Assembly (NCBI GenBank): GCA_012032575.1
Contig: JAAUSP010000046.1
Span: 1-23,725, forward strand
Direction: 5' to 3'
DNA: 23,725 bases
Origin: Anaerolineales bacterium
Lineage (GTDB): Bacteria; Chloroflexota; Anaerolineae; 4572-78; J111
In this document: piece by piece, positions 115 to 20,332 of the stretch
Position numbering within the stretch: the stretch's first letter is position 1
Layout of the letters: each line of letters opens with the position of its first letter
The notes under the pieces: model-generated
Databases searched by the model: none
Told to the model about the DNA's origin: nothing
Seen by the model: the letters and a program-made list of their open reading frames with translations, nothing else
Translations under genes and position numbers: made by a program

Positions 115-1158
115 TTACTTTCCCTGAAACAATTCCAATAAACTCAATATTACAATCAGTAACAACAAGGCTCCAAAAGCCCCTTGCGGCTGCCAGCGTT
201 CGCGGGCGAACCAGCGGCCTCGGCCCGGCCCGCGCCGGTCGAGGAGAGGCAGCGCGGCCAAGAGAGCCAATCCGGCCAGGGGAATGATCCAGCCGGCCCA
301 TAACGGTGGGACATAACGCAATAACCACTGAATCGCCAAAAAGAACCAGGGAGCTTGTACAATTTGGCCGCCCACTTGATTCAGGTTGGCTGGTGGGCCG
401 AGATCGGGTGGGGCGAAAATGGACAATAGTATCAGGCTGGCGGTCAAAACCAGGGCGGTGATCAGTTCACGGAAAAGGATCATCTCGCGGGAGACAAAGC
501 GGCGCGGCTGGCTGGCCGTCCAGTCGGGGCGGGAGAGGCCACCATCTACCCGGACGCGCCAGAGGTGGTAGCCGATGCCGCCCAGACCCAGCAAGGTCAG
601 CACAAAAACGTGCCAGGTATAAAAACGCAGAATCGCAGCCGTGCCCAAGGTCTGGTCGCCGACCAAAATAAGATAGAGGGTGGAGCCGACTCCCGGCAGT
701 TCCTTGAGGAGATTGGTTCCCACCAGCAGTGCCCAAATACTGCTGGCGTCGAAGCGCAGCACGTAGCCGCTGAAGTTCCAGACCAGCGTCACGAGCAGCA
801 ATCCCAGTCCGATAAACCAGTTGACATCACGCGGGGGGCGATAACCGCCGGTGAAGACGATCCGAGCGGTATGCAGGATGATCGCCACCACCATCACCTG
901 GGCGGCCCAGTAGTGCAGCGCCCGGACCAGACGGCCGGAGGCTACCACGCTGTCAATCAGCACCAGCGACGGATACGCGCCGGTCAGGGTGGGTTCGTAG
1001 TAAAACATCAGCAGCGCGCCGGTGAGGGTCGTGATAACCGCAGCCATCACGGCGATGCCGCCCATCCCCAGAGTGTAGCTCAACCCGGCGCTGTGAGCCG
1101 GATTCTGCGCCGGCAGCAAGTTATAAATTAGACTTTTGTTCTTGCGCCACAGCCGCAA
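115..1158 (-). CDS. Fused cytochrome b (b6 + subunit IV type), quinone/cytochrome bc-like membrane subunit
   Basis: An integral membrane diheme cytochrome b of 347 aa that would move electrons between quinone and the neighbouring redox proteins. Two heme-ligand His pairs are visible: HYW...ILH with 13 residues between the histidines, and WHV...GYH with 14, the b6-like spacing. The second half holds a subunit-IV-like stretch (APWFFLAIQWLLRYVPPL), so both cytochrome b domains are in one chain. It is the last gene of the minus-strand operon, after the diheme cytochrome c. No Rieske protein is in the window. The start at 1158 is TTG with no clear ribosome binding site, and a slightly longer N-terminus is possible. 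The family is clear; the physiological partner is inferred from position. Confidence 0.88.
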   Translation of the reverse strand: MRLWRKNKSLIYNLLPAQNPAHSAGLSYTLGMGGIAVMAAVITTLTGALLMFYYEPTLTGAYPSLVLIDSVVASGRLVRALHYWAAQVMVVAIILHTARIVFTGGYRPPRDVNWFIGLGLLLVTLVWNFSGYVLRFDASSIWALLVGTNLLKELPGVGSTLYLILVGDQTLGTAAILRFYTWHVFVLTLLGLGGIGYHLWRVRVDGGLSRPDWTASQPRRFVSREMILFRELITALVLTASLILLSIFAPPDLGPPANLNQVGGQIVQAPWFFLAIQWLLRYVPPLWAGWIIPLAGLALLAALPLLDRRGPGRGRWFARERWQPQGAFGALLLLIVILSLLELFQGK

Positions 1159-1281: not shown

Positions 1282-1956
1282 TCAACAGCCGCCCTCGGGA
1301 TCGGCCCCGGCTTGCAGCCAGTTGTAGAGGCGTTGGAAGAGGGAGTCGTCCATCTGTTCGGGGGTGTGTTCGGGAATGGTAGCGGCGGTCTGACGCATTT
1401 TAGCCCGTTCCATTTCAAAAGGAAAACTGACACCCGCCAGGGTGGGGCCATTGGGACTGCCCTGGGCAAATGCGCCGTGACAGGAGTCACATTGGCCCTC
1501 GGTCCAAACCTTCATGCCTAATATCTGACCGGACGGCAGGGCCGGGGTTGGGGCCGCCGCCACAACCTCGCTCGACTTCAGGCTGGTTAACCAACCGTAG
1601 ATGTTATAAGCATCCTGGGTGGGCAGCTCGGTTTCGTTGAAGGCCGGTTTGGGGGGGATGGCGGTCCGTACCTTATGCAGAAATTGGTCAAAGGTCAGAC
1701 TGGTTTGGGCCAGCTTGGGACCAATGCCGCCCTCGCCGTGAGAATTGTGGCAGGTGACACACTGCTTATCCAGAAAAACCTGTTGGCCGCGTCCCATATC
1801 TGCCTGGGCCGGAACAAAGTTGGCGGTGGCTGTGCCGGTGGGGGCGGGCGGGGCCGCCACTTTGGTCGGCATGGGGGGCGGAGCACCACAACCGATGACG
1901 GTCGCGGCCAGAATCAAGATTCCCGCGAGCCGGCTAACCTGGGTGATGATGTTCAT
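1282..1956 (-). CDS. Diheme cytochrome c lipoprotein
   Basis: A secreted, lipid-anchored electron carrier of 224 aa. The N-terminus is a signal peptide with a lipobox-like end (ATVIGCGAPP), so residue 23 or so is the probable lipidated Cys. Two CXXCH heme sites are visible, CVTCH near residue 66 and CDSCH near 157, each in a cytochrome c fold with a later Met-containing segment (EMERAKM in the second). The start codon overlaps the stop of the upstream iron-sulfur/cytochrome gene in an ATGA arrangement, which indicates translational coupling. It probably carries electrons between the membrane cytochromes b and the oxidoreductase complex outside the membrane. The domain calls are firm; the partner assignment is inference. 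Confidence 0.9.
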   Translation of the reverse strand: MNIITQVSRLAGILILAATVIGCGAPPPMPTKVAAPPAPTGTATANFVPAQADMGRGQQVFLDKQCVTCHNSHGEGGIGPKLAQTSLTFDQFLHKVRTAIPPKPAFNETELPTQDAYNIYGWLTSLKSSEVVAAAPTPALPSGQILGMKVWTEGQCDSCHGAFAQGSPNGPTLAGVSFPFEMERAKMRQTAATIPEHTPEQMDDSLFQRLYNWLQAGADPEGGC

Positions 1957-3401
1957 AGGGTATCATCCCTCTTGTCTTGTTCTTCCAATTCTTGCAGCCA
2001 CAGGGGGTGTTCGACCTGGGCGTAAAGTTTACTGATGCGTCCGGTGATCATATTATTGAGTGCGCCGTAAACAAAGGTGAAGTAAACGTGGCCAAATAAC
2101 AGCACGGTCAAAATTGCCATCGAAACATCATGGGCCACCAGCGCTCCGGTAAAAAGTTCGGGCGACAGGTTACTTCTGCCGATCCATAACATCACCCCGG
2201 ACAGGGCGACCAGATTGTAAAAGATAATCGTGGTAGCATGGTGGATACGCTGCCCGGCGTTGATCTCGCCCTGTGGAGGCAGGCCCCCGGCTTTACCAAA
2301 GAAGTAAAGCGGCATTTTTAACAGCCAGATGAGGTCATCTTTGTTGTAGGTAAATGACGCTTTGAGCAGATGCAAAAACCGGTCCCGGCTGGTCATAAAG
2401 TAGAAAATGGGGCCAAGAAACAGGACAACGGCGAAGATGCGATGCAGAACTCGTGAAAGCTGACCGGCAAACATGCCCAGCGGTGAGAAAAACAGAAACA
2501 GGCCGGTAATCAACAGGATCAGAAACGCCAGCGCATTGATGGCGTGCCCCAACCGTTGCACAAATCTGTAACGCACAATCACGTCAGTTTTTGGGGCTGC
2601 CGGTTGTTCAGACGCAGCAGGGGCCGTCTCCTCATTTTCCAGCGCTTCGGCTACCTCGGCAAAGTGTTCCTGGGCGTTGCGATGGGCCAGCCGATAGGCC
2701 GCCCCGGTTACGACCACTGCTGCGCCTAACATGCCCATCATGGCCGGCTGCTCCAGCTTTTGCCAGGTTTGGATCAGGGGGGGGACAGATTCGTGGACCG
2801 GCAGCGGAAATTCTTTGTCGGGGGCCGGTTTTGCCCGGTTGATGTAGTAGATGTTCGGCCCGGTTCCTGTTTCCGGGTGGAACGGCGTGGCTTCGTATTG
2901 AGCCAGCAGTTTTGACACGTCGCTCGCCGGGTCGTTGAGATCGCCAAAGTGACGCGACCCGCCCACGCATGTTTCCACGCAGGCCGGCGGCAAACCGGCA
3001 TCCAGCCGGTGGACACAGAAGGTGCATTTATCCACCACGCCGCGTGTTTTGTCCACATAACGAGCCTCGTAAGGGCAGGCGGCCATACAGTACTGGCAGT
3101 TGATGCACTTGTCGTAATCAACCAAAACCAGCCCATCATCACGCTGATAGCTGGCCCCGGTCGGACAAACCAGCACGCAGGGCGCATTATCACAGTGATG
3201 ACAGTTTTCCGGCATAAAGCTGATGCTCAGGTTCGGAAAAGTTCCACTTTCGTGTTGTTTAATCCAGTTGCGATGCATCCCTAGCGGCACGTCGTTTTCC
3301 AGGGAGCAGGAAATCATGCAGGCTTCGCAGTTGATGCAGCGATCCGGCTCCATGACAAAAACCCAGCGAGGTTTGGGGGCGGTGGAATTATTATTGCTCA
3401 T
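1953..3401 (-). CDS. DmsB/PhsB-like 4x[4Fe-4S] ferredoxin fused to FdnI-like cytochrome b561 membrane subunit
   Basis: A fusion of 482 aa. Residues about 10-200 form an electron-transfer subunit with four cysteine clusters: CINCEACMISC, CHHCDNAPCVLVCP, CINCQYCMAACP and CTFC...CVETC. A linker with one hydrophobic stretch follows. From about residue 275 on there is a four-helix cytochrome b of the formate dehydrogenase gamma (FdnI) kind, with conserved histidines in RLGHAINALAF, LHRIF, RIHHATT and FGHVYFTF. In most relatives these are two separate proteins. The fusion would pass electrons from the molybdenum subunit, encoded just upstream, to membrane quinone or to the following cytochromes. 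No lesions are seen. The start at 3401 follows a GGAG-like site. Confidence 0.9.
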   Translation of the reverse strand: MSNNNSTAPKPRWVFVMEPDRCINCEACMISCSLENDVPLGMHRNWIKQHESGTFPNLSISFMPENCHHCDNAPCVLVCPTGASYQRDDGLVLVDYDKCINCQYCMAACPYEARYVDKTRGVVDKCTFCVHRLDAGLPPACVETCVGGSRHFGDLNDPASDVSKLLAQYEATPFHPETGTGPNIYYINRAKPAPDKEFPLPVHESVPPLIQTWQKLEQPAMMGMLGAAVVVTGAAYRLAHRNAQEHFAEVAEALENEETAPAASEQPAAPKTDVIVRYRFVQRLGHAINALAFLILLITGLFLFFSPLGMFAGQLSRVLHRIFAVVLFLGPIFYFMTSRDRFLHLLKASFTYNKDDLIWLLKMPLYFFGKAGGLPPQGEINAGQRIHHATTIIFYNLVALSGVMLWIGRSNLSPELFTGALVAHDVSMAILTVLLFGHVYFTFVYGALNNMITGRISKLYAQVEHPLWLQELEEQDKRDDTL

Positions 3402-3476: not shown

Positions 3477-5701
3477 ATGCTTTCTCGACCTTCACAGTGG
3501 TCTGTGACAACGCCTGCGAGCCGCTGACCGGGTCAGTAAAGGTCAGGTGCAAATCACTGTCGCTGGCCCCCTGACCGTAGGCCGTCTTCAACCCCTTGCT
3601 GACGTGGCCGAAACCGGGGGTCATATAAACGCAGTCGGGCCGGATTTTTTCGGTCACATGGGCCACTGTTTTGACCGTCCCCCGGCGCTTTCAACCCAGA
3701 TTTCGTCACCGTCGGCAATGCCCCGTTCCGCCGCCGGTTGGGGGTTGATCCACAGCGGATTGGTCGGGACGCGCTCGTGCAGCAGCTTGTTGTTGTGGGT
3801 GGCAAACTGGGTGTGCTGGGCCACTTTGCCGGTCAGTAAAAAGAAGGTTCCCGGCTCGTTGGTGAGCGGTTCTTCCCAAACCGGCACAGCCGCAAAGCCA
3901 GAGTTAGCCAGGGTACTGGACGCCAGCTCCATTTTACCGCTGGGGGTGTTGAAGGTTGGTTCCTTTTCTGTCTCACCTTCTTCAGCCGATGGACGGTAAT
4001 AGCCCTTCTCTTTCAATTCTTCCAAAGTGATGCCGAGCGGCGCAACTTGCTGGCGCAGGTAATCTTCTTCATCCTTGTACTGGAAGTAGTCGCCCAGTCC
4101 CAGCCGGGTGCCCAATTCTTTGTAGATCCATAGGGCCGATTTGCTTTCGCCCACCGGCTCGACCACTGGCTGGCGCAGGAAAACTGTGCCGTCTACCACG
4201 GCCAGCGGGTCATACCGTTCCAGGTAGCTGGCTTCCGGCAGAACCACATCGCTGAACCAGGCGGTGTCGTTCATGGCGATATCAATGGTGACAATGAAAT
4301 CCAGCTTACCGAAGGCTTCGATGGTTTTGCGGCGCTCCGGCAGGGAGTTGACCGGGTTTTGCCGGGCGATGAACCAGCCGTGGGCCTGGTAGGGTTGGCC
4401 GGTCAGAATGTTGTCGCGAATTTCCTGAAAGACGCCCAGCTTGAGCGGCACCAGGGGGTACTTCCAGGGTACACCATCCAGCCGCAGGGCGCTGACGCGG
4501 GATAGGGCGGCTGCGGAATCGAGCCAAGTGTAACCCCGCCTTCCTCTCCGGCGGCAGGCTGCAAACTGCCCGGCCTGGCCCAACTGCCGACCAGCCCATT
4601 CAGCACGGCGATGGCCCGCTCGGTCTGGAAGGAGTTGATAAAGTTGCTGGTCCGCCAGTTGGGGTGAGCAAATGCCTGTGGCGCGGCCTGGGCAAATTCA
4701 CGGGCGATGCGCCGGATGGTCTCCGCCGAAATCTCGCATTTGCTGGCGGCCCATTCGGGGGTGTAGCCTTTGGTGGCTTCTTTGACTTCATCAAAACCGA
4801 CAGTGTATTTGTCCACAAATTCTTTGTCGTACAAGCCCTCGGCAATAATGGTCTGGATCAGGGCCAGATGAAAGGCCAGGTCGGTCCCCGGTTTGACCGG
4901 CAGCCATTCAGTCGCTTTGGCGGCAGTGGTGGTAAAGCGCGGGTCAAGCACAACCACTTTGGCCCCCCGGCTTAGCGCCGCCACCAAATCCTGGGCCTCG
5001 GAATTGGAGATGGCGTCGAGCATGTTGCGGCCGGTGTAAATGATGTACTGCGCCTGGCTGTAATCGCGGCCCGGCTCTTCCAGGCCAAAGGTGAGCAGGT
5101 TTGCCAAAATCATGGCATTGAAACAGAGCGAGCGCTGCGTGCCGTAGTTGGGCGAGCCGTAGGCTTTGAGCAGGTTTTCAAACTGGACCTGCACCAGGTT
5201 GTGGGTCGAGCTGAAGATCATCGCTTCGGGGCCGTAACGCTCTTTGATTTCGAGCATGCGGGCGGCCACATAATCGAGCGCTTCCTCCCAACTGGCCCTG
5301 GCCCACTTGCCTTCGCCGCGTCCACCTTTGCGAATGAGCGGGTATTGCAGCCGGTCAGGGTCGTACAAAGTAGCAATGCCGGCCTGTCCACGCGGACAGA
5401 GCATGCCCCGCGAATGAGGATGAAAGCTGTTGCCTTCCAGCTTGTATGCCCGGCCATCCTTAACCTTGGCCCGCACCCCACAGCGCCAGACGCACTGCTC
5501 GCACAGGGTGAAGACTTCGCGGTCGAATTGGGTCGGCGGGTAGTAGTGGGTTTGGGGGATGGCGGGGGCGGTGTTATCAGCGGGTAATATATTGACGAAG
5601 TCCAGCCCGCCCATAGCGGCTGTTCCGGCCATTACCCCTGCCCCCAACTCCAGAAATTGGCGGCGGGAGAGGGGTTGGAGAGGTTTTCGCTTGCTTGTCA
5701 T
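3475..5701 (-). CDS. Tat-exported molybdopterin oxidoreductase, PhsA/PsrA-like (two apparent frameshifts)
   Basis: The catalytic subunit of a Mo-bisMGD enzyme, probably acting on an inorganic sulfur compound such as thiosulfate or polysulfide. The start at 5701 is chosen because it has a GGAG site and puts the twin-arginine signal SRRQFLELG at the N-terminus; a longer frame would run into a repeat. CEQCVWRCG with the later MLCPRG gives the [4Fe-4S] motif, and the Cys in GTQRSLCFNA is the probable Mo ligand, as in PhsA/PsrA. The reading frame breaks twice. At 4499-4501 one G is missing on the plus strand, within PPYP/RVSAL. At 3679-3683 one C is missing, within ESAGG/TVKTVAHV. Adding one base at each gives a continuous protein of 742 aa, normal for the family. 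Both breaks are in homopolymers, so sequencing error is likely. The exact substrate is not certain. Confidence 0.85.
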
Positions 5702-5724
5702 AGATTGACTCCGGTGGAGAGATG

Positions 5725-5776
5725 GGAGATTAGAGATTGGAGATTCGCAATCCTTAATCTCCAATCTCTAATCTCC
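5725..5776. repeat. 21-bp perfect inverted repeat built of 7-bp units (AGATTRG)
   Basis: The left arm at 5725-5745 and the right arm at 5756-5776 are perfectly complementary over 21 bp, with a 10-nt loop. Each arm is three 7-bp units of the GGAGATT/AGAGATT kind. It lies between the second YeeE gene and the molybdopterin gene. Copies of a single arm recur at 6898-6922 and 20549-20569. Confidence 0.88.
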
Positions 5777-5783
5777 TGCTTTT

Positions 5784-6338
5784 CTAAGCTTTGACGTTGT
5801 CCGGCCGCGGCTCGCCCTTTTTGGCTAAAATATAGAACAGATAGCCAGAGAACAGAGCCAGAAAAGCGATCAATAACCAGTGATTGACGTTGAACAGATC
5901 GGGCATGTAAGTAGCCCCATAGTTGGCGATACCAGAAATCACCGGAAAAACATCGGCGTAGGTCATACCAAACAGGATGGCTCCAACCAGAAAGCCCAGG
6001 ATTCCAGGGATCAAATAATCAAGATTACCCCGACCAAGACCGGCCAGGCAAGTGCCCGGTCAGAAACCGGCCAGGGCCATGCCGGCCCCAAACACCAGCG
6101 CACCGATAAAGTTGCCGACCAGATAAGTTGGGGTGCTGCCGGTCAGGTTTGCCAGGCCCAAATCGTATATAAGGTAAATACCTACCGACCCTATCACAAT
6201 GGCCGTGAGCATAAATTTGAGCACGCTCAGATCGGTAAAGCGGTAGACGTTGACAATTTTGCTGTAGCGGGTAAAACCCACCTTTTGCAAAATAAAGCCA
6301 AAAAAGATGCCGACAATCAGGGCTGCACTAAAACTCAT
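5784..6338 (-). CDS. YeeE/YedE-family sulfur (or selenium) transporter half with in-frame TGA; candidate selenoprotein
   Basis: A membrane protein of 184 aa if the TGA at 6060-6062 is read through, with about five hydrophobic segments. It resembles PF04143 (YeeE/YedE), proteins that bring thiosulfate-type sulfur, or possibly selenium, into the cell along a track of Cys residues. Before the TGA the frame reads FGAGMALAGF and after it PGTCLAGLGRG. In relatives this motif is normally G-x-CPGT, so the TGA replaces the key Cys. The frame is unbroken on both sides, no indel is needed, and a SECIS-like hairpin follows. The start ATG at 6338 lies 3 nt after the upstream YeeE half, with AGAGGT inside that gene's end, so the two are translationally coupled. 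The alternatives are a Cys-to-TGA point mutation or error, which would leave a 92-aa fragment. Confidence 0.8.
6029..6062 (-). promoter_or_regulatory. Candidate bacterial SECIS element directly after the in-frame TGA
   Basis: Read on the minus strand, 18 nt separate the TGA (6062-6060) from a six-base loop GGUCUU (6041-6036). The loop is closed by a 7-bp stem, CCUGGCC (6048-6042) with GGUCGGG (6035-6029), including two G-U pairs. Bacterial SECIS models require the loop about 16-37 nt after the UGA with a G in its first two bases, and both hold. The loop resembles the AGGUCU loop of E. coli fdhF. The fold was made by hand and no energy was computed. Confidence 0.55.
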
Positions 6339-6341
6339 GGG

Positions 6342-6881
6342 TTAATACCTCTTTCCGTATAAAATTTTGGCGACGATGATGCCGGAGATAAACATCCCGG
6401 CCATAAAGACAAAGGCCGCCGGGGCTAACTGCACCCCCCCGGAGATAGCCAGGCCGCTGGTACACCCTCCGGCGATACCGGCTCCGTATTCCAACAGGAT
6501 CGCTCCGAAGAAGAGGGCCAGCCAGCGTTTCCAATGGGCCGAACCAAATACCTGCACCCACTGTTCATCGGAAATCCAGCGCAATTTGAAATCGCCGGAG
6601 GTGATGGCAGCGATAAATGCTCCGATAATGACCCCACCCCCCATAATTACCCCCCAGGTGATGCCGGGGGTCATCACAAAGCGCCAGTAGGTATTTTCGG
6701 CCACGGCGGGCGCAACCACCTGCATGATCGAGCCGGCCAGGTTTTCAAACGCGCCGGACGCCCCAAAGAGCAGGCCGGTGAAGAGCAGGGTAAAAATCGC
6801 TAACAGTCCCAACATCGCCCCGGTCAGGTAGGGCGACCATTCGACCTGGCGAAACCAGGTAACAAAACTATTGGTAGGCAT
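6342..6881 (-). CDS. YeeE/YedE-family sulfur transporter, first half
   Basis: A membrane protein of 179 aa with several hydrophobic helices. The conserved motif LEYGAGIAGGCTSGLAISGG carries the intact pore Cys of PF04143. Larger relatives such as E. coli YeeE (TsuA) contain two such halves in one chain; here the second half is the next gene, so the two probably form one transporter. The start at 6881 has AGGAG about 7 nt upstream. Its place between a triheme cytochrome and a PhsA/PsrA-like enzyme suggests uptake or handling of a sulfur compound tied to that enzyme. The actual substrate is not shown by sequence. Confidence 0.85.
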   Translation of the reverse strand: MPTNSFVTWFRQVEWSPYLTGAMLGLLAIFTLLFTGLLFGASGAFENLAGSIMQVVAPAVAENTYWRFVMTPGITWGVIMGGGVIIGAFIAAITSGDFKLRWISDEQWVQVFGSAHWKRWLALFFGAILLEYGAGIAGGCTSGLAISGGVQLAPAAFVFMAGMFISGIIVAKILYGKRY

Positions 6882-6943: not shown

Positions 6944-7840
6944 TTAACTTTTATCCTTTGTGGTGGACCTGATAGCTGCTAGAATTTCACTGCTCCGTTT
7001 GGGGTTGGCCAGCAAAGCATCCAGGGCTGCCAGTTTTTCAGGTGGTAATTTTAGCAGCCGGGGTAACAACCTTTGGAGCTCCGGTTTTTGAGCCAACAGC
7101 GCTTCCACCTGGCCTGGATCAATCTCGCTCAAGCCGCCGTCGCTGCGAGCCATAGCCGCCGCCATAGCCTGGGGAACAGGACTGATATTATGGTTGATCC
7201 AATCGGCTGCCTTCTGACCCCAATTTTCCCAACTCCAGGCGGTCACAAAAAAGGCGGCTACGACTCCAACAATCATTAAAACCAGAATGATGTTGCCCCA
7301 ATTTGAAATCAATGGGGGCGGCGTGGTCGCTTCGGCGTAGAGCAGATTGAAATCAATCTCCTCATCACCCAGGGGAGCGCTGACGGCCGTAGGTCCGGTG
7401 GTGCAACTGTCGTCACCGCCGGGAGCGCTGTCAGCCGGTGGTTGTGTGCCGCCCCCGCCGCCCGACATCAAATCAACGCCGAGGGTCGAAGCATAGGTTT
7501 GGGCCAGGGGATTGAAGTCGTCGGGGTGACAGCCCTGGCAACTGGCTTTGACATCGCCCAGCGGTGCAACCATCCCCACGTGAGCTTCGTCCTGAGCCGC
7601 CGCCTGGACATTACCGGCGTGGCAAAATTCGCAGAAGTCGCCAAAAGCGTGGGCTTTGTGCCAGTCACCGTTATTGGCAACCGAACCTTTGCCCTGGGTT
7701 TCATGGCAGTTCTTGCAGGATGAGGCCGATGTGCCGCACTGGGCCGCAGCCGGTTGAGCGGAGACAAGCATCATCGCCCCGAAGAGCAGGGTTAAGGCTG
7801 CGATCAGGGTAGCAAAGAACCACTTGTCATTGTGATTCAT
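6944..7840 (-). CDS. Membrane-anchored triheme cytochrome c
   Basis: An exported multiheme electron-transfer protein of 298 aa. The start at 7840 is preferred because AGGAG lies about 9 nt upstream and it begins directly with a signal peptide ending in AQPAAAQC. Three CXXCH sites follow: CKNCH, CEFCH and CQGCH. A low-complexity GGGGG-rich linker leads to one transmembrane helix (NIILVLMIVGVVAAFFVTAW). The C-terminal 90 residues are cytoplasmic and helical, rich in Leu and Lys, and hold no heme. It is the first structural gene after the PocR-type regulator and would connect extracytoplasmic electrons to the downstream oxidoreductase. No family name is recognised with certainty. Confidence 0.85.
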   Translation of the reverse strand: MNHNDKWFFATLIAALTLLFGAMMLVSAQPAAAQCGTSASSCKNCHETQGKGSVANNGDWHKAHAFGDFCEFCHAGNVQAAAQDEAHVGMVAPLGDVKASCQGCHPDDFNPLAQTYASTLGVDLMSGGGGGTQPPADSAPGGDDSCTTGPTAVSAPLGDEEIDFNLLYAEATTPPPLISNWGNIILVLMIVGVVAAFFVTAWSWENWGQKAADWINHNISPVPQAMAAAMARSDGGLSEIDPGQVEALLAQKPELQRLLPRLLKLPPEKLAALDALLANPKRSSEILAAIRSTTKDKS

Positions 7841-7866
7841 ATAGATTTTTCTCCTGTGGTAAAACC

Positions 7867-7903
7867 TGGTCAAGAGCCGGCAAGGGGAGCCGGCAGGTGG
7901 CCG
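7867..7903. repeat. Three GCCGGCA direct repeats
   Basis: Three copies of the self-complementary GCCGGC core, in AGCCGGCA/GGCCGGCA context, lie in the short gap between the regulator's stop and the triheme cytochrome gene. Neighbouring copies can pair with each other as small hairpins. Confidence 0.65.
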
Positions 7904-11760: not shown

Positions 11761-12273
11761 TTATCCCTCGGCCCCTTCAGCAAAGGGGTGGCGGGCGGTG
11801 GCTTCCTGGGCCAGCACTTCGTCTATGGTCGGCTTTCCGGTCATAGCGCGCATGATCCCTTCTTTGGTAGCCTGGTAGTTATAATCGTAAATCTTTTGGG
11901 TACTTTCCGCTTCCCAGTGAATAAAAACGCCGACGATGATACATAGGTCGTCAACTTGACCCATGGGAATAACCCCTTCTTTGACGGAGTCAACTACAGC
12001 GCGAGCCACGGCAGCCTGAGCCGGTCCGAACATTTGCACGGCTTGCTTGGCCCCTTTTATAGTCACTTTGTTGGTCATGATGGTGTCGGGTTTGGCCGGA
12101 AGATTGGGGGTGATTAATGACAATAATGAGGTGAATCCATCGGTTTGGTTAACCAAAGAAGCCGCAAAAGCCTGGCCAACCGGGCCATCCTTTGGACCTA
12201 TCACAATGTCCACGTGAGCAACTTCATTGCCCTCACCAACGAGAGCTTCACCGACCATCATTGCTTTACTCAT
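11761..12273 (-). CDS. fae: Formaldehyde-activating enzyme (Fae)
   Basis: Catalyses condensation of formaldehyde with tetrahydromethanopterin to give methylene-H4MPT, the entry step of the archaeal-type one-carbon pathway, in the cytoplasm. The protein is 170 aa, normal for Fae. Near-invariant motifs are visible: GEALVGEGNEVAHVD with the catalytic His, TSLLSLITPNLPAKPDTIM, KGAKQAVQMFGPAQAAVA, VGVFIHWEA and KIYDYNYQATK. AAAGGAG lies 7 nt before the ATG. It has its own promoter and terminator, so it is probably transcribed alone and strongly. There are no lesions. Confidence 0.96.
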   Translation of the reverse strand: MSKAMMVGEALVGEGNEVAHVDIVIGPKDGPVGQAFAASLVNQTDGFTSLLSLITPNLPAKPDTIMTNKVTIKGAKQAVQMFGPAQAAVARAVVDSVKEGVIPMGQVDDLCIIVGVFIHWEAESTQKIYDYNYQATKEGIMRAMTGKPTIDEVLAQEATARHPFAEGAEG

Positions 12274-12500: not shown

Positions 12501-12761
12501 ATGTGTATCTGTGCCGCACCCACCACACCTTTAGAAGGTGTAACCGTTTATGGGCGAAGTCAGGCCGCCGACTATCAACAAGTGCGCCGATTTTTTGACG
12601 ATCGCGGGGTTGTGTTTGACTATGCCGATGTCGAACGGGACCAGGCCAGTTTGCAGCGCATGCTCGAACTGTCGGGGCAGCAAAACAGCGTGGTTATCGA
12701 AATTGGCAAAAAGATTTTTATCGGCCTGAATCCCGCCGATCTCGAGTGTGTACTGCCTTAA
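12501..12761 (+). CDS. Glutaredoxin-like protein lacking the CXXC active site
   Basis: An 86-aa protein with a thioredoxin/glutaredoxin-like pattern: VTVYGRSQAADYQQVRRFF, then DYADVERD and a C-terminal beta pair (VVIEIGKKIFIGLNPADLE). Where true glutaredoxins have W-C-P-x-C this protein has SQAADY, and the usual Val-Pro before strand 3 is Val-Val, so it cannot work as a dithiol reductase. Two cysteines lie instead at the extreme N-terminus (MCICAAP). GAGGAG precedes the ATG. It is divergent from fae and overlaps the end of the DUF1464-like gene by 4 nt in convergent orientation. A binding or scaffold role is possible; the function is unknown. Confidence 0.6.
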   Translation: MCICAAPTTPLEGVTVYGRSQAADYQQVRRFFDDRGVVFDYADVERDQASLQRMLELSGQQNSVVIEIGKKIFIGLNPADLECVLP

Positions 12762-13861
12762 TCGGCAGCCCCCCTCAGATATTTTCGCTTCAGTTCGTCG
12801 GCCAGGCTGACATGGATATAATCCAGCACTGTGCCGCTAGCTTCTTTAAGCCGCATCGTTTCAACCAGGCCGGCATATTGACCTCCAGCCATGCCGTCGG
12901 CGATTAAAGCAGCCCCTTGAGCGGCCTCTTTGGCCACATGAGCAAGGCCCGAAATACGATGGACCGGGGCATAGCGGCTCAGGCGGTCGGCCAGTTCTTC
13001 GCGCACAGCCGGGATGCGGCACAACCGGCCTGAGAGAAGAATCTCCCGGACATTGGGCACAATAGCCATCTGAGCGGCCACACTTTTCTTGACTCCCTCA
13101 AACAAAGCCTCCCAGGCCGCGTGAGCCGCCGGAACAGTTTCTCTCAGCTCCAGGGCTGCTTCGGGTGAAAGGGCCGGTTGACCGGTCATGCTAGCCACTC
13201 CCCCGGAAAAAAGCACGGATTTGGGAAAAGTCCCCAGCAGATAGGCCAGTTCTCCGTCCATAGCCCCCAACGAATCAATAACCCGGCCCACCGCTCGAGC
13301 GCCCAGTCCATCCACCACCTGCCCGGCCTGGACGGTCATGACGGCCGTATAAGCGCCGCCCACCTCGACATAAATGAAGCTGGTGGCATTATAGGCAATA
13401 TGATGACGCTGGGCCTGATCTATGATGCCCAGGGCCAGACAGCAAAGCTTGTCAGCCGTGCCCATATCAATTTTGTTGGCTTTGCGATGCACCGGCACGG
13501 TGGGCAGATGGATGACCCCCGGCATAAATACCACCGGCAGGCCGCTCGTTTTTAGCATAGAGACCATCTCGCTCATGCCGCCCAAGACCGACACCTGGCT
13601 GCGCTCCCGTTCATCGGCCAGGATAAATAGGAAAAGCTCCTGCTCGCCGAACGCCTCGATGTTGACCCACGGCAGGCCATAACCGGAAGGGCCAATGACC
13701 AGATCAAGGGGTTGGGCTGCCTTTAAAACGTCAACCAAAACCTGCGGGTTAGCCCCAATTTCGGCTGAGGGAATGGTTGTATCCAGAAATACCCGCCCAT
13801 CCTCCAGCCCGCACAGATCAAAACTCACCGTGCCCGGATCAATCCCGATAACTTTTGACAT
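12758..13861 (-). CDS. DUF1464-like ASKHA-fold protein (butyrate/acetate-kinase-like)
   Basis: A 367-aa predicted cytoplasmic protein. The N-terminus VIGIDPGTVSFDLCGLEDG is a phosphate-1 loop of the actin/hexokinase/acetate-kinase superfamily, and FIYVEVGGAYTAV and VLFSGGVASM look like the later nucleotide-binding elements. The overall pattern (GPSGYGLPWV, AGKxDxGTADKL-like KANKIDMGTADKLCC) fits DUF1464, a family I associate with archaea and with H4MPT-dependent bacteria. It is probably an uncharacterised small-molecule kinase or ATPase in the one-carbon module or its cofactor supply. AGGAGAT precedes the ATG. It may be read together with the upstream SARP-type regulator. The fold is fairly sure; the family name is from memory. 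Confidence 0.65.
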   Translation of the reverse strand: MSKVIGIDPGTVSFDLCGLEDGRVFLDTTIPSAEIGANPQVLVDVLKAAQPLDLVIGPSGYGLPWVNIEAFGEQELFLFILADERERSQVSVLGGMSEMVSMLKTSGLPVVFMPGVIHLPTVPVHRKANKIDMGTADKLCCLALGIIDQAQRHHIAYNATSFIYVEVGGAYTAVMTVQAGQVVDGLGARAVGRVIDSLGAMDGELAYLLGTFPKSVLFSGGVASMTGQPALSPEAALELRETVPAAHAAWEALFEGVKKSVAAQMAIVPNVREILLSGRLCRIPAVREELADRLSRYAPVHRISGLAHVAKEAAQGAALIADGMAGGQYAGLVETMRLKEASGTVLDYIHVSLADELKRKYLRGAAD

Positions 13862-13931: not shown

Positions 13932-16900
13932 TTAAATAGATGAGGGTTGCCGGCCCGCCATTTCGAGCAATATCCTGGCGACCCACTCGTCGAGTTGATT
14001 GACTTGCACTTTTTCTTGAGCGGCGGTGGTAATCTGTTGCGGCAAATTGGCCGTCAGTTCAGTCCAGAGAAGTCTGGCTCTATCTCTGGTTTCCTGTTTG
14101 CTGGCGGCATGCCGGAGCGAAAAGGTGAGCAGTTCCAGAGCTTGCTCGGTTCTGTCTTCCTCCATAAAAAGTTTAGCAAAATCGGTTAAAATATCCAAAA
14201 CGATTGGCACGGCATGGATTTCCTGAGTAGATTTGAGGGCCTCGAAGAGATATTCTTTGGCTTTATTAAACTCCCCCAAGGCATAGGCTACACTCCCTAA
14301 AACGTGGAGGGATTGGGTGATCCCGCGTTGGTAGGTTAATTTCGTGGCAATGGTCAAACTGTCGGTTAACAGCCTCCGAGCCTCCACATGCTCGCCCAAT
14401 AAATAGTCAGTATGCCCCAAATAATAGGAGGTCAAGGCGATTCCTAAGGAGTAATCCAGCTCTTTGCATGTCTGCAAAACCTCTTGGTGAAGTTGTTGGG
14501 CCTGACTGTACTCACCCAGATTCCGAGCCACCGTCCCCAATAGATTCAGGCAAAAGGCGATACCGCTGCGGTAGCCGAACTCTTTAAAAATAGCCAGACT
14601 CTCCTGAGCCATCGTTTTTGCCTGAGCATATTCGCCCAGGCTGATGGCGATCATGCTCAGGTATTCCAACGATAAAGCCTCTTCCCAGCGATCCCCAATC
14701 TCTCTGGCTATTGCCAGACCTTGCTCGCAGAACTGCCGGGCCTCTTGGTACTGTCCCAGGTTATGGGTGGCAATGCCCAGTAAGTTTAGCGAAAAAGCGA
14801 CACCGCTGCGATAGCCGAACTCTCTAAAAATGATCAATCCTCGTTGGGCTATCGCTTTGGCATCATCATATTCGCCCAGGCTAATGGCAATCATACCCAG
14901 GTATTCCAGAATGAGCGCCTGTTTCCAGCGATCGCCCATCTTTCGGTGATGATCAGGCTTTCCTGGCAGAGTTGTTTCGCTTCGACATACTCACCCAAGG
15001 CCCAGGCGACTGCGGCCAGGTAATTGAGACTCAGCGGCGCATTCTGGCGCAGCACGGCATCCTGAAAAATAGCCAGACCTTCCTGCATAACGGCCCTGGC
15101 CTGGTCATACTGCCCCAGGCTGGCGCAGAAGACGCCCTGTCGAGCCAGCACATGGCCCAACATTTTATCAATTTGCCGGTCGGAACCGGCCTTTTCCTTT
15201 GCTTTCCGCAATCGTGCCGCGGCGTGCCTGAAGACGGCTTCACCCTCCTGAAACCAACTTTGTACATTGTGGACCAGGAACAAACCCTCGCGATACTTTT
15301 CAAAATCCTCTTCTCGCCGGTTGGCGACAGCCCAATACCACCCGGCCCGCAGATTATCAATTTCCAGGTTGACGGCCCCCAGAGTTTCTTTTTGCTGCCC
15401 CTTTTTCAGATAAGCTTCCTGTTCCCGCAAAATTCGGCGTAATGACGACAGTGGCGATCCTTGACCTTCTTTTTCGCTTCGGGGTTCTCCGCCAACTTTT
15501 TAGCGCCATACTGGCGCAAAAGTTCATGGATTCAATAGTGATCGGTGTCCGTCCGGCGGAGCAGGGATTTGTCTACCAGCGCCGACAGCAGAAACGCCGA
15601 AGCGCCCACTACCTGCTCGGCCGATTTGCGGCTGAAACCGCCCCAGAATACCGACAACCGGCTGAAGACGTTTCGTTCTTCTTCCGAGAGAAGCCCCCAG
15701 GAATGTTCAAACACCGCCTGCAAGCTGTGATGCCGTTTGGGAATATTTTGCAGCGAAGTGGTCAGAAAATCGTAGTTTTTTCAATCTCCACCACAATTTC
15801 ACGGCAAGAGAAGGTCCGAATCCAGGCTGCCGCTAACTCGATCCCCAGCGGCATCCCCTCGACCAGCCGGCAGATACGGACCACCGCCGGTTTATCCAGG
15901 TATCTGAGCCAAAAATCGGCCTGCACCTGCTGTGCCCGCTGGAGAAACAACTGGACGGCGCTGTAATTCTCCAGCAGAACCATGTCGTCGCCTTCGGGAA
16001 AGGTCAATCCTTGCAAATCTAAGATCCATTCCTCCTGCAAACTAAGCCGTTCACGCGATGTCACCAGCATTTTTAGGTGCGGCGCGCGTTGCAGAATCTC
16101 GACCAGCAAGCCGGCCCCTGAAATTAAGTGCTCAAAGTTGTCCAGCACCAGGAGCATTTCTTTATCGCTGAGATAATCAATGAGCTGTGTTTTTGGGTCT
16201 CCCCGGCCATAGAGCGGAAATTTGAGGGCGCTGGCTATCGTCGAGATGAGGAAATCGGGTGAACTGATGGAGGTTAAACCGACAAAGCAGACCCCCTGGC
16301 GAAACCCGTTTGCGGCAGCGGCGGATTGGAGGGCCAGTCGCGTTTTACCAATACCGCCCAGGCCAATAATCGTCAAAAGCCGGCAGGCTGGCTTGCCCAA
16401 ATATTGCTCGATGAGGGTCAGTTCCTCTTCGCGGCCAATAAAAGAAGTAGATTGCGCGGGCAGATTATTGTAGAAGAACGAAGCTGGCGTAGAAACAGCG
16501 GAAGACAGATTTCCATTAGCTGTTGAGATTTGGGCTTCGTGCCTCAACTCACCTGACCGAATCCGTTCATAGAGTTGAACTGTTTCGCTGGCAGGCTCCA
16601 CGCCCAATTCTTCCGTCAGGTAGAGGCGACAGGCTTCAAATTGAGCCAGGGACGCGCTGCGCTGTCCGCTCTGGGCCAACCAGACTATTTTTTGGCGATG
16701 CGCGTCTTCGTCGCCGGGGTCTATTTCCAGGAGGCGCGAAATGAATTGGAGCGCTTGTTCTGTTTCATTGGGCTGGGTGTAATGGGCGATGAGATCGCGT
16801 AAAACCTGGGTCACACGCTGACGCCAGTTTTCCTGTTCCAGCCTGAGCCACTGCTCAAATTCAGGGCAGTTATCCAGATACATCCCGGCCATGAAATCGC

Positions 16901-17270
16901 CCCGATAAAGCTCGGCGGCCATGGCCAGCGTACTCACTTCGCCTTTGCCGACCCAATCATTAAACCCCTTCAGGTCAAGGCTGGTTGAGGCCGTTGAGCA
17001 GAATCGGATGGCATGATGGTTGGCCTCGCAGCAGCCCGGCCAGAGATTTAAAAGGTTATGCAGGGCCTGACTCAGGTTGTTGCGGCTGCGGCTCTCTGGT
17101 TGATCCGGCCAGAAAAGTTCGGCCAGATAACTGCGTGAAATGGGGCGACCCTCGGCAGCCAGGTACCCCAAAAGCGCCAAAACTTTGCGTGACTTAAAAC
17201 CGTGGATTGGTTCACCATCCCGGTACAGGGAGACCGGGCCTAACAATTGCAGCCGGAAAAGAGACGACAT
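13932..17270 (-). CDS. SARP-type transcriptional activator: BTAD + NB-ARC ATPase + TPR repeats (broken by three indels and one stop)
   Basis: A large regulator of about 1113 aa after correction. Residues 1-245 are a winged helix and bacterial transcriptional activator domain (FKSRKVLALLGYLA, ELFWPD). About 285-500 is an NTPase with Walker A GLGGIGKTRLAL and Walker B MLLVLDNFEHL. The C-terminal half is about ten TPR-like repeats of the LGEYxxAKxLxxESL kind. The frame is broken at T-run 15776-15781 (one base missing), A-run 15429-15432 (one missing) and T-run 14941-14943 (one missing). In addition an in-frame TGA at 15532-15534 sits in HY-stop-IHELLRQY. It may control the DUF1464-like gene downstream and the divergent DUF2193/mtdB group. 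Sequencing error explains the indels; the stop could be real decay. Confidence 0.8.
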
Positions 17271-17744: not shown

Positions 17745-19285
17745 ATGTCAAAAGCTATCCACGAGGCAATGGTCAACCAGGCTATGGCGGCGCTCAAGGC
17801 TGATGTGAACAATATTAAGGCTAAGCGCGGGACCCAATTCAAAATTGCGGATGCGCAGCCCTATGTGGACGCCGTCAATGGCATGAAAGCGGTTGACAAC
17901 GAACTGCCCGAAGTGATCGCTCTCCACGTCGACTCGGTCAATGCTCACTATGAAATCCTCAAATCTTTAACGGACACCGTCCGCCCCGAAGACGACCCGT
18001 TTGTCGAGCACTATCAAACCGGCCCGATCATGGAAATTCTCTATGAAGAGCAGCCGGATTTCAAAGCCTCCGTTAAAAAATTTATTGATGCCATTCCCGC
18101 CAACCGCGCCCTGATTGGCCGCGAAGCCGCTCGCCTCTATGGCGGGCTGTATGGGCCAACCTGCGTGGTAGACTTTGCCCTCAGCCCCGGCTCAACTGCC
18201 AACGTCGTCAACCGGGTTCTGGCCGGTCTGGACATCCCCAAAGATCACAAAAAGACCATTTTGGCGGCCAAATCCTTTGGCATGACCACTTCCTATGGTC
18301 TGGGCGCTTCCTTCAAAGCCTCGGTCGAAGCCGGTAAAACCCTCGATGCGGCCCTCGACGACGAAATCGCCACCCTGCAAATGATCTATGATACCCCCTC
18401 GGAGGCCCAAACCAAGCTTATGCTGGGCCACAACCTGGGTGGGCATGGCGGCCACAGCTCCTTCGACACTGCCGAATATCAGAAACAATACAAGGAACGC
18501 ATGAAGCCAACCATCAAGGCGGCTCTGGCCAAGGGCGTACACCCTGGCAACGTCGTCTGTGTGCCGGCCTACTGCGTGGGCGATGTGGCTCACCACAACA
18601 GCCAGACTATGTTCAACTTTGCCCAGGACCCGATCATCATGGCTATCTTCGAGGCCCACACCGCCGCCCTCGAAAGCACCCTGAATCGCGGCCTGGAGCA
18701 GGGCTTCAAGAACGAGTACGGCCCGGTCGGATTGGCCGTTGGCACCGGCGCGGCCTTGATGGCATACGAGTTTCTGCTGGATTACATGCCGATTCCCAGC
18801 ATCATCGAGCTGCTGGTCAATCGCTTCCACAACATGGTTGCCATGAACCCCAACCGCGACTCTGCCGCCGAGCTGCACAACGTGGACATGATGATGTCCA
18901 TCTGGCGCGGCTGGAACATCCTCAAACCCAAACCGCTGGGCAAGGGTGGCGAACTTGACGGGGTCAAGATTGATCTCGGCCCGATTGATACGCACGATGT
19001 GCTGGCGAACATCCATCGCTACACCTATCCGCCCTGCGCCATCACCCAACGGGTGGGCACCATGCTCAAATTCGCCGACTTCCCCTGCTTGCTCACCAGC
19101 GAGCCGGTCACGGCGACGATGCTGACCCACGTGGTCGCGCTGCATCCCGAATCGGCCTCCTTCCCCTATCGCATTGATAAGGATTGGGGCGCCACCGAGT
19201 ACCGCTTCATCAATACGGGACTTGGCATGAAGGCGCCGGCGCCGACCCGGTGGTTGGCTACGAGCAACGCTCCGCCAGCGTGTAA
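17745..19285 (+). CDS. DUF2193-like protein of archaeal type (C-terminal frameshift)
   Basis: A large soluble protein of 513 aa after correction. I recognise the general pattern of DUF2193, a family I recall mainly from methanogens and without known function; this is from memory. Features include RLYGGLYGPTCVVDFALSPG, a histidine/glycine patch HNLGGHGGHSSFD, and VPAYCVGDVAHHNSQ with Cys and paired His, a possible metal or cofactor site. There is no signal peptide. AAAGGAG lies 9 nt before the ATG. Near 19238 one G is missing; corrected, the end reads GADPVVGYEQRSASV with TAA at 19283-19285. Uncorrected, the frame runs to 19313 inside a repeat. It lies directly before mtdB, so a one-carbon role is likely but unproven. 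Confidence 0.75.
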
Positions 19286-19293
19286 GGTTGCCC

Positions 19294-19378
19294 ATGTCAT
19301 TGCGAGGCCGTAGGCCGAAGCAATCCCCCAGTTGCGTGGAGATTGCTTCGGCGCAAAAAGCGCGTCTCGCAATGACAT
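19294..19378. repeat. Palindromic element with ATGTCATT ends, copy 1
   Basis: An 85-bp element with perfect 13-bp terminal inverted repeats, ATGTCATTGCGAG at 19294 and CTCGCAATGACAT ending at 19378. Inner inverted GAAGCAATC/GATTGCTTC arms let it fold as a long hairpin. It starts 9 bp after the corrected stop of the upstream gene. Confidence 0.85.
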
Positions 19379-19387
19379 TTGATGTTT

Positions 19388-19415
19388 TTGGTTAGTTCGG
19401 AGGGGATGATATAAT
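19388..19415 (+). promoter_or_regulatory. Promoter of mtdB
   Basis: TTGGTT (19388-19393) and a perfect TATAAT (19410-19415) are 16 nt apart. The transcript would start at about the leader hairpin at 19419. Confidence 0.6.
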
Positions 19416-19418
19416 ATC

Positions 19419-19448
19419 GGCCCGCGTGCAGATTATTGCACGCGGGCC
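19419..19448 (+). promoter_or_regulatory. Leader hairpin at the 5' end of the mtdB transcript
   Basis: A perfect 12-bp stem, GGCCCGCGTGCA (19419-19430) and TGCACGCGGGCC (19437-19448), with loop GATTAT. It starts a few bases after the -10 box and ends 26 nt before the ATG, leaving AAGGCGG free as ribosome binding site. It could stabilise the mRNA or regulate it; no T-run follows, so it is not a terminator. Confidence 0.65.
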
Positions 19449-19474
19449 AGACTTGCTCACCAAAGGCGGTGCTC

Positions 19475-20332
19475 ATGAAAAAACTCTTGATTCAATTGGA
19501 TAGTGATAAGCATCCCAGTTCATTTGATCGAATTGTCCCGTTTGATGCGGGCGTTGACGAAGTACTCAGTTACGGTAACGTAGCGATTGAAGATGTCGCC
19601 GGACTGGTGCAGGGGTCCTTTTTTACGCGCGGCATCCCCGATTTAAAGAATACGGCCATCTGGATTGGCCGGCTCGCATGTGCCCACGGGTGAGGCGCTG
19701 CTGGCCGCCGTCAAAAGACCTTCTTTGGCCCCTTTAAAGTATCGGTGATGCTCGATTCCAATGGCTGCAATACCACCGCCGCCACAGCGGTAGCCAAGAT
19801 GGTCAAGGCGCTGGATGTGCGTGGCCGGCGGGTGGTAGTGGGAGCCGGCACCGGGCCGGTCGGGATGCGGGCGGCCGGTATGCTGGCGAGTGAGGGCGCG
19901 AAAGTGATCCTGACCTCGCGCAGCCTGGACCGGGCCAAAACCGCGGCGGAGATTGTGTCCAAGCGTTTTGGGGTTGAAGTTGAAGGCGCATCATTATCCG
20001 ACGACGCCTCGGCGAGCCGGGTTTTGACCGGGGCCGTGGCCCTGTTTACCTGCGGTACAGCCGGGGCGCAGGTGGTCAGCAAAGCTGTCTGGACCAGCGC
20101 CGCCGACCTTAAGCTGATTGCCGACATCAATGCAGTGCCGCCTCTGGGTATCGAGGGCATTGATATGAACGATAACGGCAGCGAGCGCGAGGGCCGCATC
20201 TCCTTTGGCGCACTGGGCATCGGCGGGCGAAAGATGAAAGTGCATCGCACCTGTATTGCCCGGTTGTTTGAAGCCAACGATGTTCTCATGGACGCCGAGT
20301 CAATCTACCAGGTTGCCAAAGAGTTGGTGTGA
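19475..20332 (+). CDS. mtdB: NAD(P)-dependent methylene-tetrahydromethanopterin dehydrogenase, MtdB-like (two compensating frameshifts)
   Basis: Oxidises methylene-H4MPT to methenyl-H4MPT with NAD(P)+, the step after Fae. The corrected protein is 285 aa, close to the family's 290-300. The N-terminus MKKLLIQLDSDKHPSSFD, the central VSVMLDSNGCNTTAATAVAK, the nucleotide-binding VVVGAGTGPVGMRAAGMLA and the C-terminal FGALGIGGRKMKVHRTCIA all match MtdA/MtdB. One extra C near 19669-19670 and one missing A in the run 19713-19716 put the segment GSHVPTGEALLAAVKK out of frame; the two cancel. The assignment to MtdB rather than MtdA is from context (Fae and Fwd genes). Confidence 0.85.

Follow-up and report, generated by a model that had tools for sequence, protein, structure and literature searches.

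The window, a 23,725-nucleotide stretch of DNA from an Anaerolineales bacterium, carries on its minus strand a gene for a YeeE/YedE-type half-transporter with an in-frame UGA, set among genes for a partner half, a PhsA-like molybdoenzyme and cytochromes. From 5′ to 3′ on that strand, the features are:

6944..7873, minus strand: protein with three CxxCH motifs (counted by eye), probably a cytochrome
6342..6881, minus strand: pmpA-like partner half (PF04143; 62.9 bits against a cut-off of 27), with the Cys of GGCTSG at the Cys293-type position
5784..6338, minus strand: pmpB-like YeeE/YedE half-transporter gene with an in-frame UGA; 184 amino acids, UGA as residue 93, ATG start, TAG stop
6060..6062, minus strand: the UGA codon taken as selenocysteine, aligned with Cys91 of S. 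thermophila TsuA/YeeE
6029..6048, minus strand: SECIS-like hairpin of eight pairs with loop GGUCUU, the loop starting 18 nt after the UGA
3654..5764, minus strand: PhsA-like molybdopterin oxidoreductase in two overlapping frames, 5764–4403 and 4583–3654
1953..3401, minus strand: 4Fe–4S subunit fused to a cytochrome b561-type domain; it matches TtrB and DsrO best, each below cut-off
1282..1956, minus strand: c-type cytochrome (PF13442)
115..1158, minus strand: cytochrome b/b6-type membrane subunit (best NCBIfam match ExtP, 209 bits, below the cut-off of 290)

The pmpB-like frame begins with ATG at 6338, runs for 92 codons to the TGA (6062–6060) and, when that codon is read through, continues for 91 codons to TAG (5786–5784) without any other stop. 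A preliminary description of this DNA had read the context as ALAGF-TGA-PGTCLAG, which matches the sequence exactly, although the strand has to be corrected to minus. It had also held that the frame and the family similarity run on past the TGA; the frame is indeed unbroken to the TAG, and the match to Pfam Sulf_transp (PF04143), which scores 77 bits where the cut-off is 27, extends over residues 25–176 of the read-through protein and spans the TGA. Its further proposal, that the TGA replaces a conserved Cys before PGT, agrees with the homologs: searching with the full 184-residue reading found 463, and the site is occupied by Cys in 118 of the 120 listed and by Trp in the other two (P0036 and P0091), possibly because a gene caller using another code translated UGA as Trp. 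In an alignment with S. thermophila TsuA/YeeE (structures 6LEO, 8J4C and 8K1R), residue 93 falls on Cys91. A selenoprotein gene is expected to have an in-frame UGA with conserved protein sequence on either side, and the window gene has both.

The stop recurs at this one residue. Searching with only the 92 residues N-terminal of the TGA found 50 proteins, 47 of them short database homologs (51–97% identity) that terminate in the alignment column just before the UGA site; two of the remaining three have frame-changed tails and one has Cys. A parallel search with a betaproteobacterial query found 47 proteins, all placed at the site by the alignment, with 46 counted as terminating there after one with an unrelated tail (P0216) was left out of the count. 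Because short proteins do not reveal which stop codon ended them, we scanned DNA for the TGA form, using one genome per species for 84,980 species. The scan returned 104 pattern loci, of which 84 are true homologs with TGA at the site, and the 20 without homology were treated as chance. Homology extends on both sides of the TGA in 83 of these 84, whereas L043 has homology upstream only, followed by a 280-codon open frame downstream.

As given in record titles, the 84 loci, most of them from metagenome assemblies, span five phyla: mainly Chloroflexota, with Bacillota (L018, L019, L094 and L097), Pseudomonadota (L017, L046, L064, L071, L072 and L093), Nitrospirota (L043, L060 and L068) and Nitrospinota (L023); L001 and L047 are titled only ‘bacterium’. 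The locus closest to the window, L058, lies on a 1.89-Mb contig of Anaerolineales bacterium H5_CFX7. The final stop downstream of the UGA differs by locus, being TAA, TAG or TGA, and its being sometimes TGA indicates that UGA still functions as a stop. More distant YeeE/YedE paralogs, with frames of about 324–414 codons, were also seen with a single in-frame TGA (for example G014:C15, G010:C347, G089:C156 and G313:C67).

UGA and Cys codons alternate at the site among close homologs, a comparison that the preliminary description had proposed and that class, phylum and family samples, none of them selected for UGA, bear out. In the class sample (298 genomes of the class of H5_CFX7, 123 with some match), the best 28 matches comprise 19 with exactly one stop, a TGA, and nine without a stop. 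We read the loci for 18 of those 19 and found the TGA at the site in every one; the nine stop-free matches have TGC or TGT there in six cases and an aligned Cys in the other three. One weaker class match (G093) has TAG. A phylum sample of 400 genomes gave eight strong matches, six with one TGA and two without a stop, and one family of 152 genomes, picked because one member has the Cys form, gave 38 matches spread over 37 genomes, of which 24 matches have one TGA and 14 have no stop. The exchange reaches the closest relatives: H5_CFX7 has TGA, G317 (91% identical) has TGT, and the window groups with both in a tree of half-length proteins, built from the 90 of 101 rows that have the half-length motif. 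At least five TGA/Cys changes are needed on this tree, three of them forced by well-supported branches; the proportions of its rows mean nothing, because the UGA rows come mostly from a UGA-only scan. A further Cys, four residues after the site, is present in 85 of 86 UGA rows (the one without it is a chance hit) versus 9 of 15 Cys rows.

The 7-bp stem with loop GGUCUU that had been noted 18 nt after the UGA is real and lengthens to eight pairs with a closing G–U. Numbering the U of UGA as 1, nucleotides 15–22 pair with 27–34 and the loop bases GGUCUU occupy 22–27, a register that we take to resemble that of E. coli fdhF. Folded alone, nucleotides 13–36 of the window reach −11.8 kcal/mol (z = −2.4). 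Folding the RNA after the TGA, as the preliminary description had recommended, supported the hairpin in part: in a free fold of 45 nt from the UGA a different structure wins (−17.5 kcal/mol), whereas the SECIS-like hairpin is the optimum in all four truncations that omit the first 6, 9, 11 or 12 nt and so mimic the nucleotides covered by a decoding ribosome. When the window is taken by itself, a stem this long also arises in 4.5% of 400 synonymous-codon shuffles, so the single-sequence evidence is modest and the comparative evidence decides. Single UGA genes in general have their stem matched by codon shuffles with a median chance of 17% (116 rows, including repeats and chance rows) and, given also the rival free fold, the strength of the hairpin lies in the set and not in one gene. 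Rfam gave no match, either to the whole window or to the hairpin region.

Over the set, the hairpin goes with UGA and not with the Cys codon. Because free-energy z-scores for 48 nt from the site are weak (mean −0.8 for UGA and about 0 for Cys, chance rows and repeats included), we measured how long a stem forms in register and took codon shuffles, shifted registers and Cys orthologs as controls. At least five consecutive pairs with a loop starting at nucleotides 21–24 were found in 89 of 89 distinct UGA genes versus 1 of 15 Cys orthologs (Fisher 2 × 10−16, a value that overstates the case because related sequences are not independent and the tree gives about five changes). The 89 genes are 94 rows minus the chance hits L049, L059, L073, L074 and L081, with which the count is 91 of 94; rows had to have an open frame of about 50 codons after the site and 12 before it, by which L003 was dropped. 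As accidental negatives, the five chance hits have 2, 2, 2, 5 and 5 pairs.

The association holds when the downstream amino-acid motif is matched (47 of 47 UGA versus 1 of 12 Cys genes), and in these motif-matched genes codon 6 is GCC in 45 of 47 UGA and 0 of 12 Cys genes, while codon 5 is GCC, GTC or GCT in UGA genes and GCG in 8 of 12 Cys genes. Predicted optimal folds of nucleotides 12–48 place a hairpin loop within nucleotides 21–28 in 88 of 89 UGA versus 4 of 15 Cys genes. Applied at twelve shifted registers, the same stem measure is reached by 6–55% of UGA rows, the highest value lying 39 nt further on, versus 97% in register (chance rows included). The pair 21–25 is U–A instead of C–G in 9 of 72 rows of the first structural type (five chance rows included).

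Machinery for selenocysteine, which the preliminary description had marked for checking, was found in related genomes. In 50 UGA-bearing genomes, chosen for spread among the genomes of the 84 loci, SelB scored over cut-off in 44, SelA in 42, SelD in 47 and tRNA-Sec in 45 (with a match of at least 54 bits in 43), versus 2, 1, 2 and 5, respectively, of 14 control genomes; at 5 of 14 controls, RF01852 is a weak discriminator. SelA or SelB is over cut-off in 49 of the 50; the remaining genome, G050, has SelD together with a tRNA-Sec match. SelA, SelB, SelD and tRNA-Sec are all present in the closest relative (G001), whose selD itself contains one TGA. We dropped within-class co-occurrence of UGA with this machinery as an uninformative test, because 246 of 298 genomes of the class at large have SelA over cut-off and co-occurrence inside the class therefore proves little. 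ARAGORN found no tRNA gene in the window. With SelA so common in the class, the window organism very probably has the selenocysteine trait.

The UGA-bearing gene mostly keeps the same company. In 54 of the 64 UGA loci that could be assessed, the gene immediately upstream encodes a PmpA half, and with its half length, a residue aligned with the essential Cys91 and a partner half adjoining, the window gene appears from these characters to be a PmpB-type half. At the partner’s Cys we found no second UGA: of 85 loci, the window among them, 70 have its motif no more than 2 kb upstream, and in all 70 the Cys codon is TGC or TGT. Fused one-chain forms with the same UGA occur in Pseudomonadota, Nitrospirota and Nitrospinota (L017, L023, L043, L046, L060, L064, L068, L071, L072 and L093), and 8 of these 10 keep the GGC-motif Cys of the second half, the frames of the other two stopping before the motif. 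Directly downstream on the same strand, a PhsA-like molybdoenzyme follows in 55 of 57 assessable UGA loci (the exceptions being L045 and L097). PhsA is the best NCBIfam model for both molybdoenzyme pieces of the window, each below the full-length cut-off, and in the closest relative the gene is a single 745-codon open frame (L176, 6867–9104), so the window, with its two frames, has either a broken gene or one or more frame errors. The protein at 6944–7873 has no Pfam or NCBIfam match, and a same-strand match to it lies upstream in 53 of the 84 UGA loci. ExtP, the best match of the cytochrome b at 115–1158, belongs to selenite/tellurite reduction operons.

Elsewhere in the window, a long regulator-like gene (13932–17270, minus strand) is apparently in several frames, and one translated frame of 14930–15800, a region that includes the second in-frame TGA pointed out at 15532 in the preliminary description, has many stops. 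A DUF1464 protein is encoded at 12758–13861, and 11761–12273 and 17745–20332 hold what we take, by eye, to be a formaldehyde-activating enzyme and tetrahydromethanopterin-linked C1 genes.

Three other explanations of the UGA were weighed against selenocysteine. One gene in the window is indeed broken, the PhsA-like one, which lies in two frames where the closest relative has one, and the TGA might be a one-base sequencing mistake or a fresh nonsense mutation of a Cys codon. We consider this very improbable and, for the protein family, reject it on the recurrence of the TGA: the same codon stands in 84 true loci, including the 1.89-Mb contig of the closest relative, many short database proteins stop at the same place, and single TGAs are the only stops in the best 28 class matches. 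Homology running on past the TGA and a hairpin that tracks UGA argue against error or decay as well. The presence of SelA, SelB, SelD and tRNA-Sec in most of the 50 genomes, together with a downstream hairpin of the kind that SelB-dependent decoding requires, makes it highly unlikely that UGA is decoded otherwise, as Cys by an unusual tRNA or as Trp by a changed code, although the Trp of P0036 and P0091 would fit the latter. Genome-wide reassignment is rejected, since UGA terminates the same gene in several loci and cannot be reassigned throughout those genomes.

Real termination would instead yield a functional protein of 92 residues, with the downstream part separate or dead, and many proteins of 92–94 amino acids of this kind do stand in databases. 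Yet conservation resumes immediately after the UGA in the same frame (PGTCxAG), and the first ATG after the UGA in the window comes 32 codons on (though a TTG comes 16 codons on). Moreover, each Cys ortholog is one full-length protein, and in the fused proteobacterial form the chain runs across the UGA and on for about 275 residues more. We regard a genuine short protein as extremely improbable and reject it on the same-frame conservation, the full-length Cys orthologs and the fused forms.

We conclude from sequence comparison that the apparently halved gene is very probably whole, its stop being read as selenocysteine. The recurrent UGA at one site, the Sec/Cys exchange, the SECIS-like hairpin, the machinery in relatives and the operon all point this way; beyond what the comparison shows, we infer actual selenocysteine incorporation, the pairing of PmpA with PmpB, the substrate and any advantage of selenium over sulfur. 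For the explanation as a whole, in which UGA is a selenocysteine codon and full PmpB pairs with PmpA and moves reduced sulfur species, our confidence is high. The hairpin that immediately follows the UGA would direct SelB and tRNA-Sec to insert selenocysteine, so that the full 184-residue PmpB is produced. This N-terminal half of a YeeE-type transporter would combine with PmpA, the C-terminal half, into one TsuA/YeeE-like membrane transporter, in which selenocysteine would stand in for the mid-path Cys91 and PmpA would supply the Cys293-type Cys. The substrate of PmpAB would be a reduced sulfur species, most likely thiosulfate or sulfane sulfur, with selenium species possible, and transport would be connected with the PhsA-like molybdoenzyme encoded downstream, giving a sulfur-compound transporter putatively coupled to a PhsA-like respiratory reductase.

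More tentatively, we suggest a wider model that we would place a little short of probable. Selenocysteine in the mid-path of the split YeeE (PmpAB) may be old and common at least in Anaerolineae, repeatedly replaced later by Cys. In five or more phyla, this transporter and a PhsA-like molybdoenzyme of the periplasm may together make up a respiratory module dedicated to sulfur. The selenocysteine might carry sulfane sulfur through transient covalent or hydrogen bonds, possibly together with the Cys that lies four residues after it.

Selenocysteine is usually regarded as a residue of redox enzymes; if the proposed reading is true, it would sit here in the transport path of a membrane protein. 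A widespread gene is recorded as a truncated protein of 92–94 residues, so these genomes would be misannotated and the transporter of the operon hidden. Natural selenocysteine and Cys versions in close relatives would make the contribution of selenium to sulfur transport directly testable.

Several known systems bear comparison with the window pair. In the available portion of one account of TsuA/YeeE, Cys293, Cys91 and Cys22 line up on the route proposed for transport (PMC11073785), and the accessible part of another describes Cys91 and Cys293 as indispensable (PMC11582611). TsuA/YeeE of S. thermophila is a single chain with Cys, whereas the window has a split transporter with a predicted selenocysteine, and the NCBIfam TsuA models score the window protein far below cut-off (44.2 of 400 and 39 of 645 bits). 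The putative selenium transporters YedE/FdhT, linked to selenium use in the accessible part of PMC5322559, are distant homologs of the window PmpB, on which TIGR04112 and NF033796 likewise score far below cut-off (30.2 of 200 and 34.7 of 350 bits). Their selenium link, as that part of the source gives it, consists of neighbouring selenium-metabolism genes, whereas the link in the window would be a selenocysteine inside the protein.

The preliminary description had called the gene a candidate new selenoprotein; the selenocysteine reading is supported, but the family already figures on selenoprotein lists. In the available portions of two reviews (PMC13188914 and PMC9312934), YeeE/YedE (PF04143) appears as a selenoprotein with the motif GUxSG and the example WP_012471001.1, so selenocysteine in the PF04143 family is not new. 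The listed protein shares with the window PmpB its Pfam family and a predicted selenocysteine in a YeeE/YedE protein. The two differ, when compared by the listed motif and not by sequence, in that the window has GFUPGTC and not GUxSG; as far as the available text describes the listed protein, they differ also in that the window PmpB is a split half (fused in Pseudomonadota, Nitrospirota and Nitrospinota) beside a PhsA-like gene. The main texts (supplements aside) of the two sources cited for the listed protein do not mention YeeE, nor does the deep-Sep paper. A literature search for YeeE with selenoprotein and UGA returned only the same two reviews, and one for PmpB with selenocysteine returned unrelated titles. 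Relative to the literature examined, and with no claim of absence from print, the GFUPGTC context, the split PmpB with PmpA, the PhsA-like operon and the breadth of occurrence are new.

The PmpB/PmpA proteins of Serratia are, according to the available part of PMC11582611, short YeeE proteins in which the PmpB Cys corresponds to Cys91 and the PmpA Cys to Cys293 of TsuA. On that description they are like the window pair in being two short proteins, but they carry Cys and are about 130 amino acids long, whereas the window PmpB would have 184 amino acids and selenocysteine.
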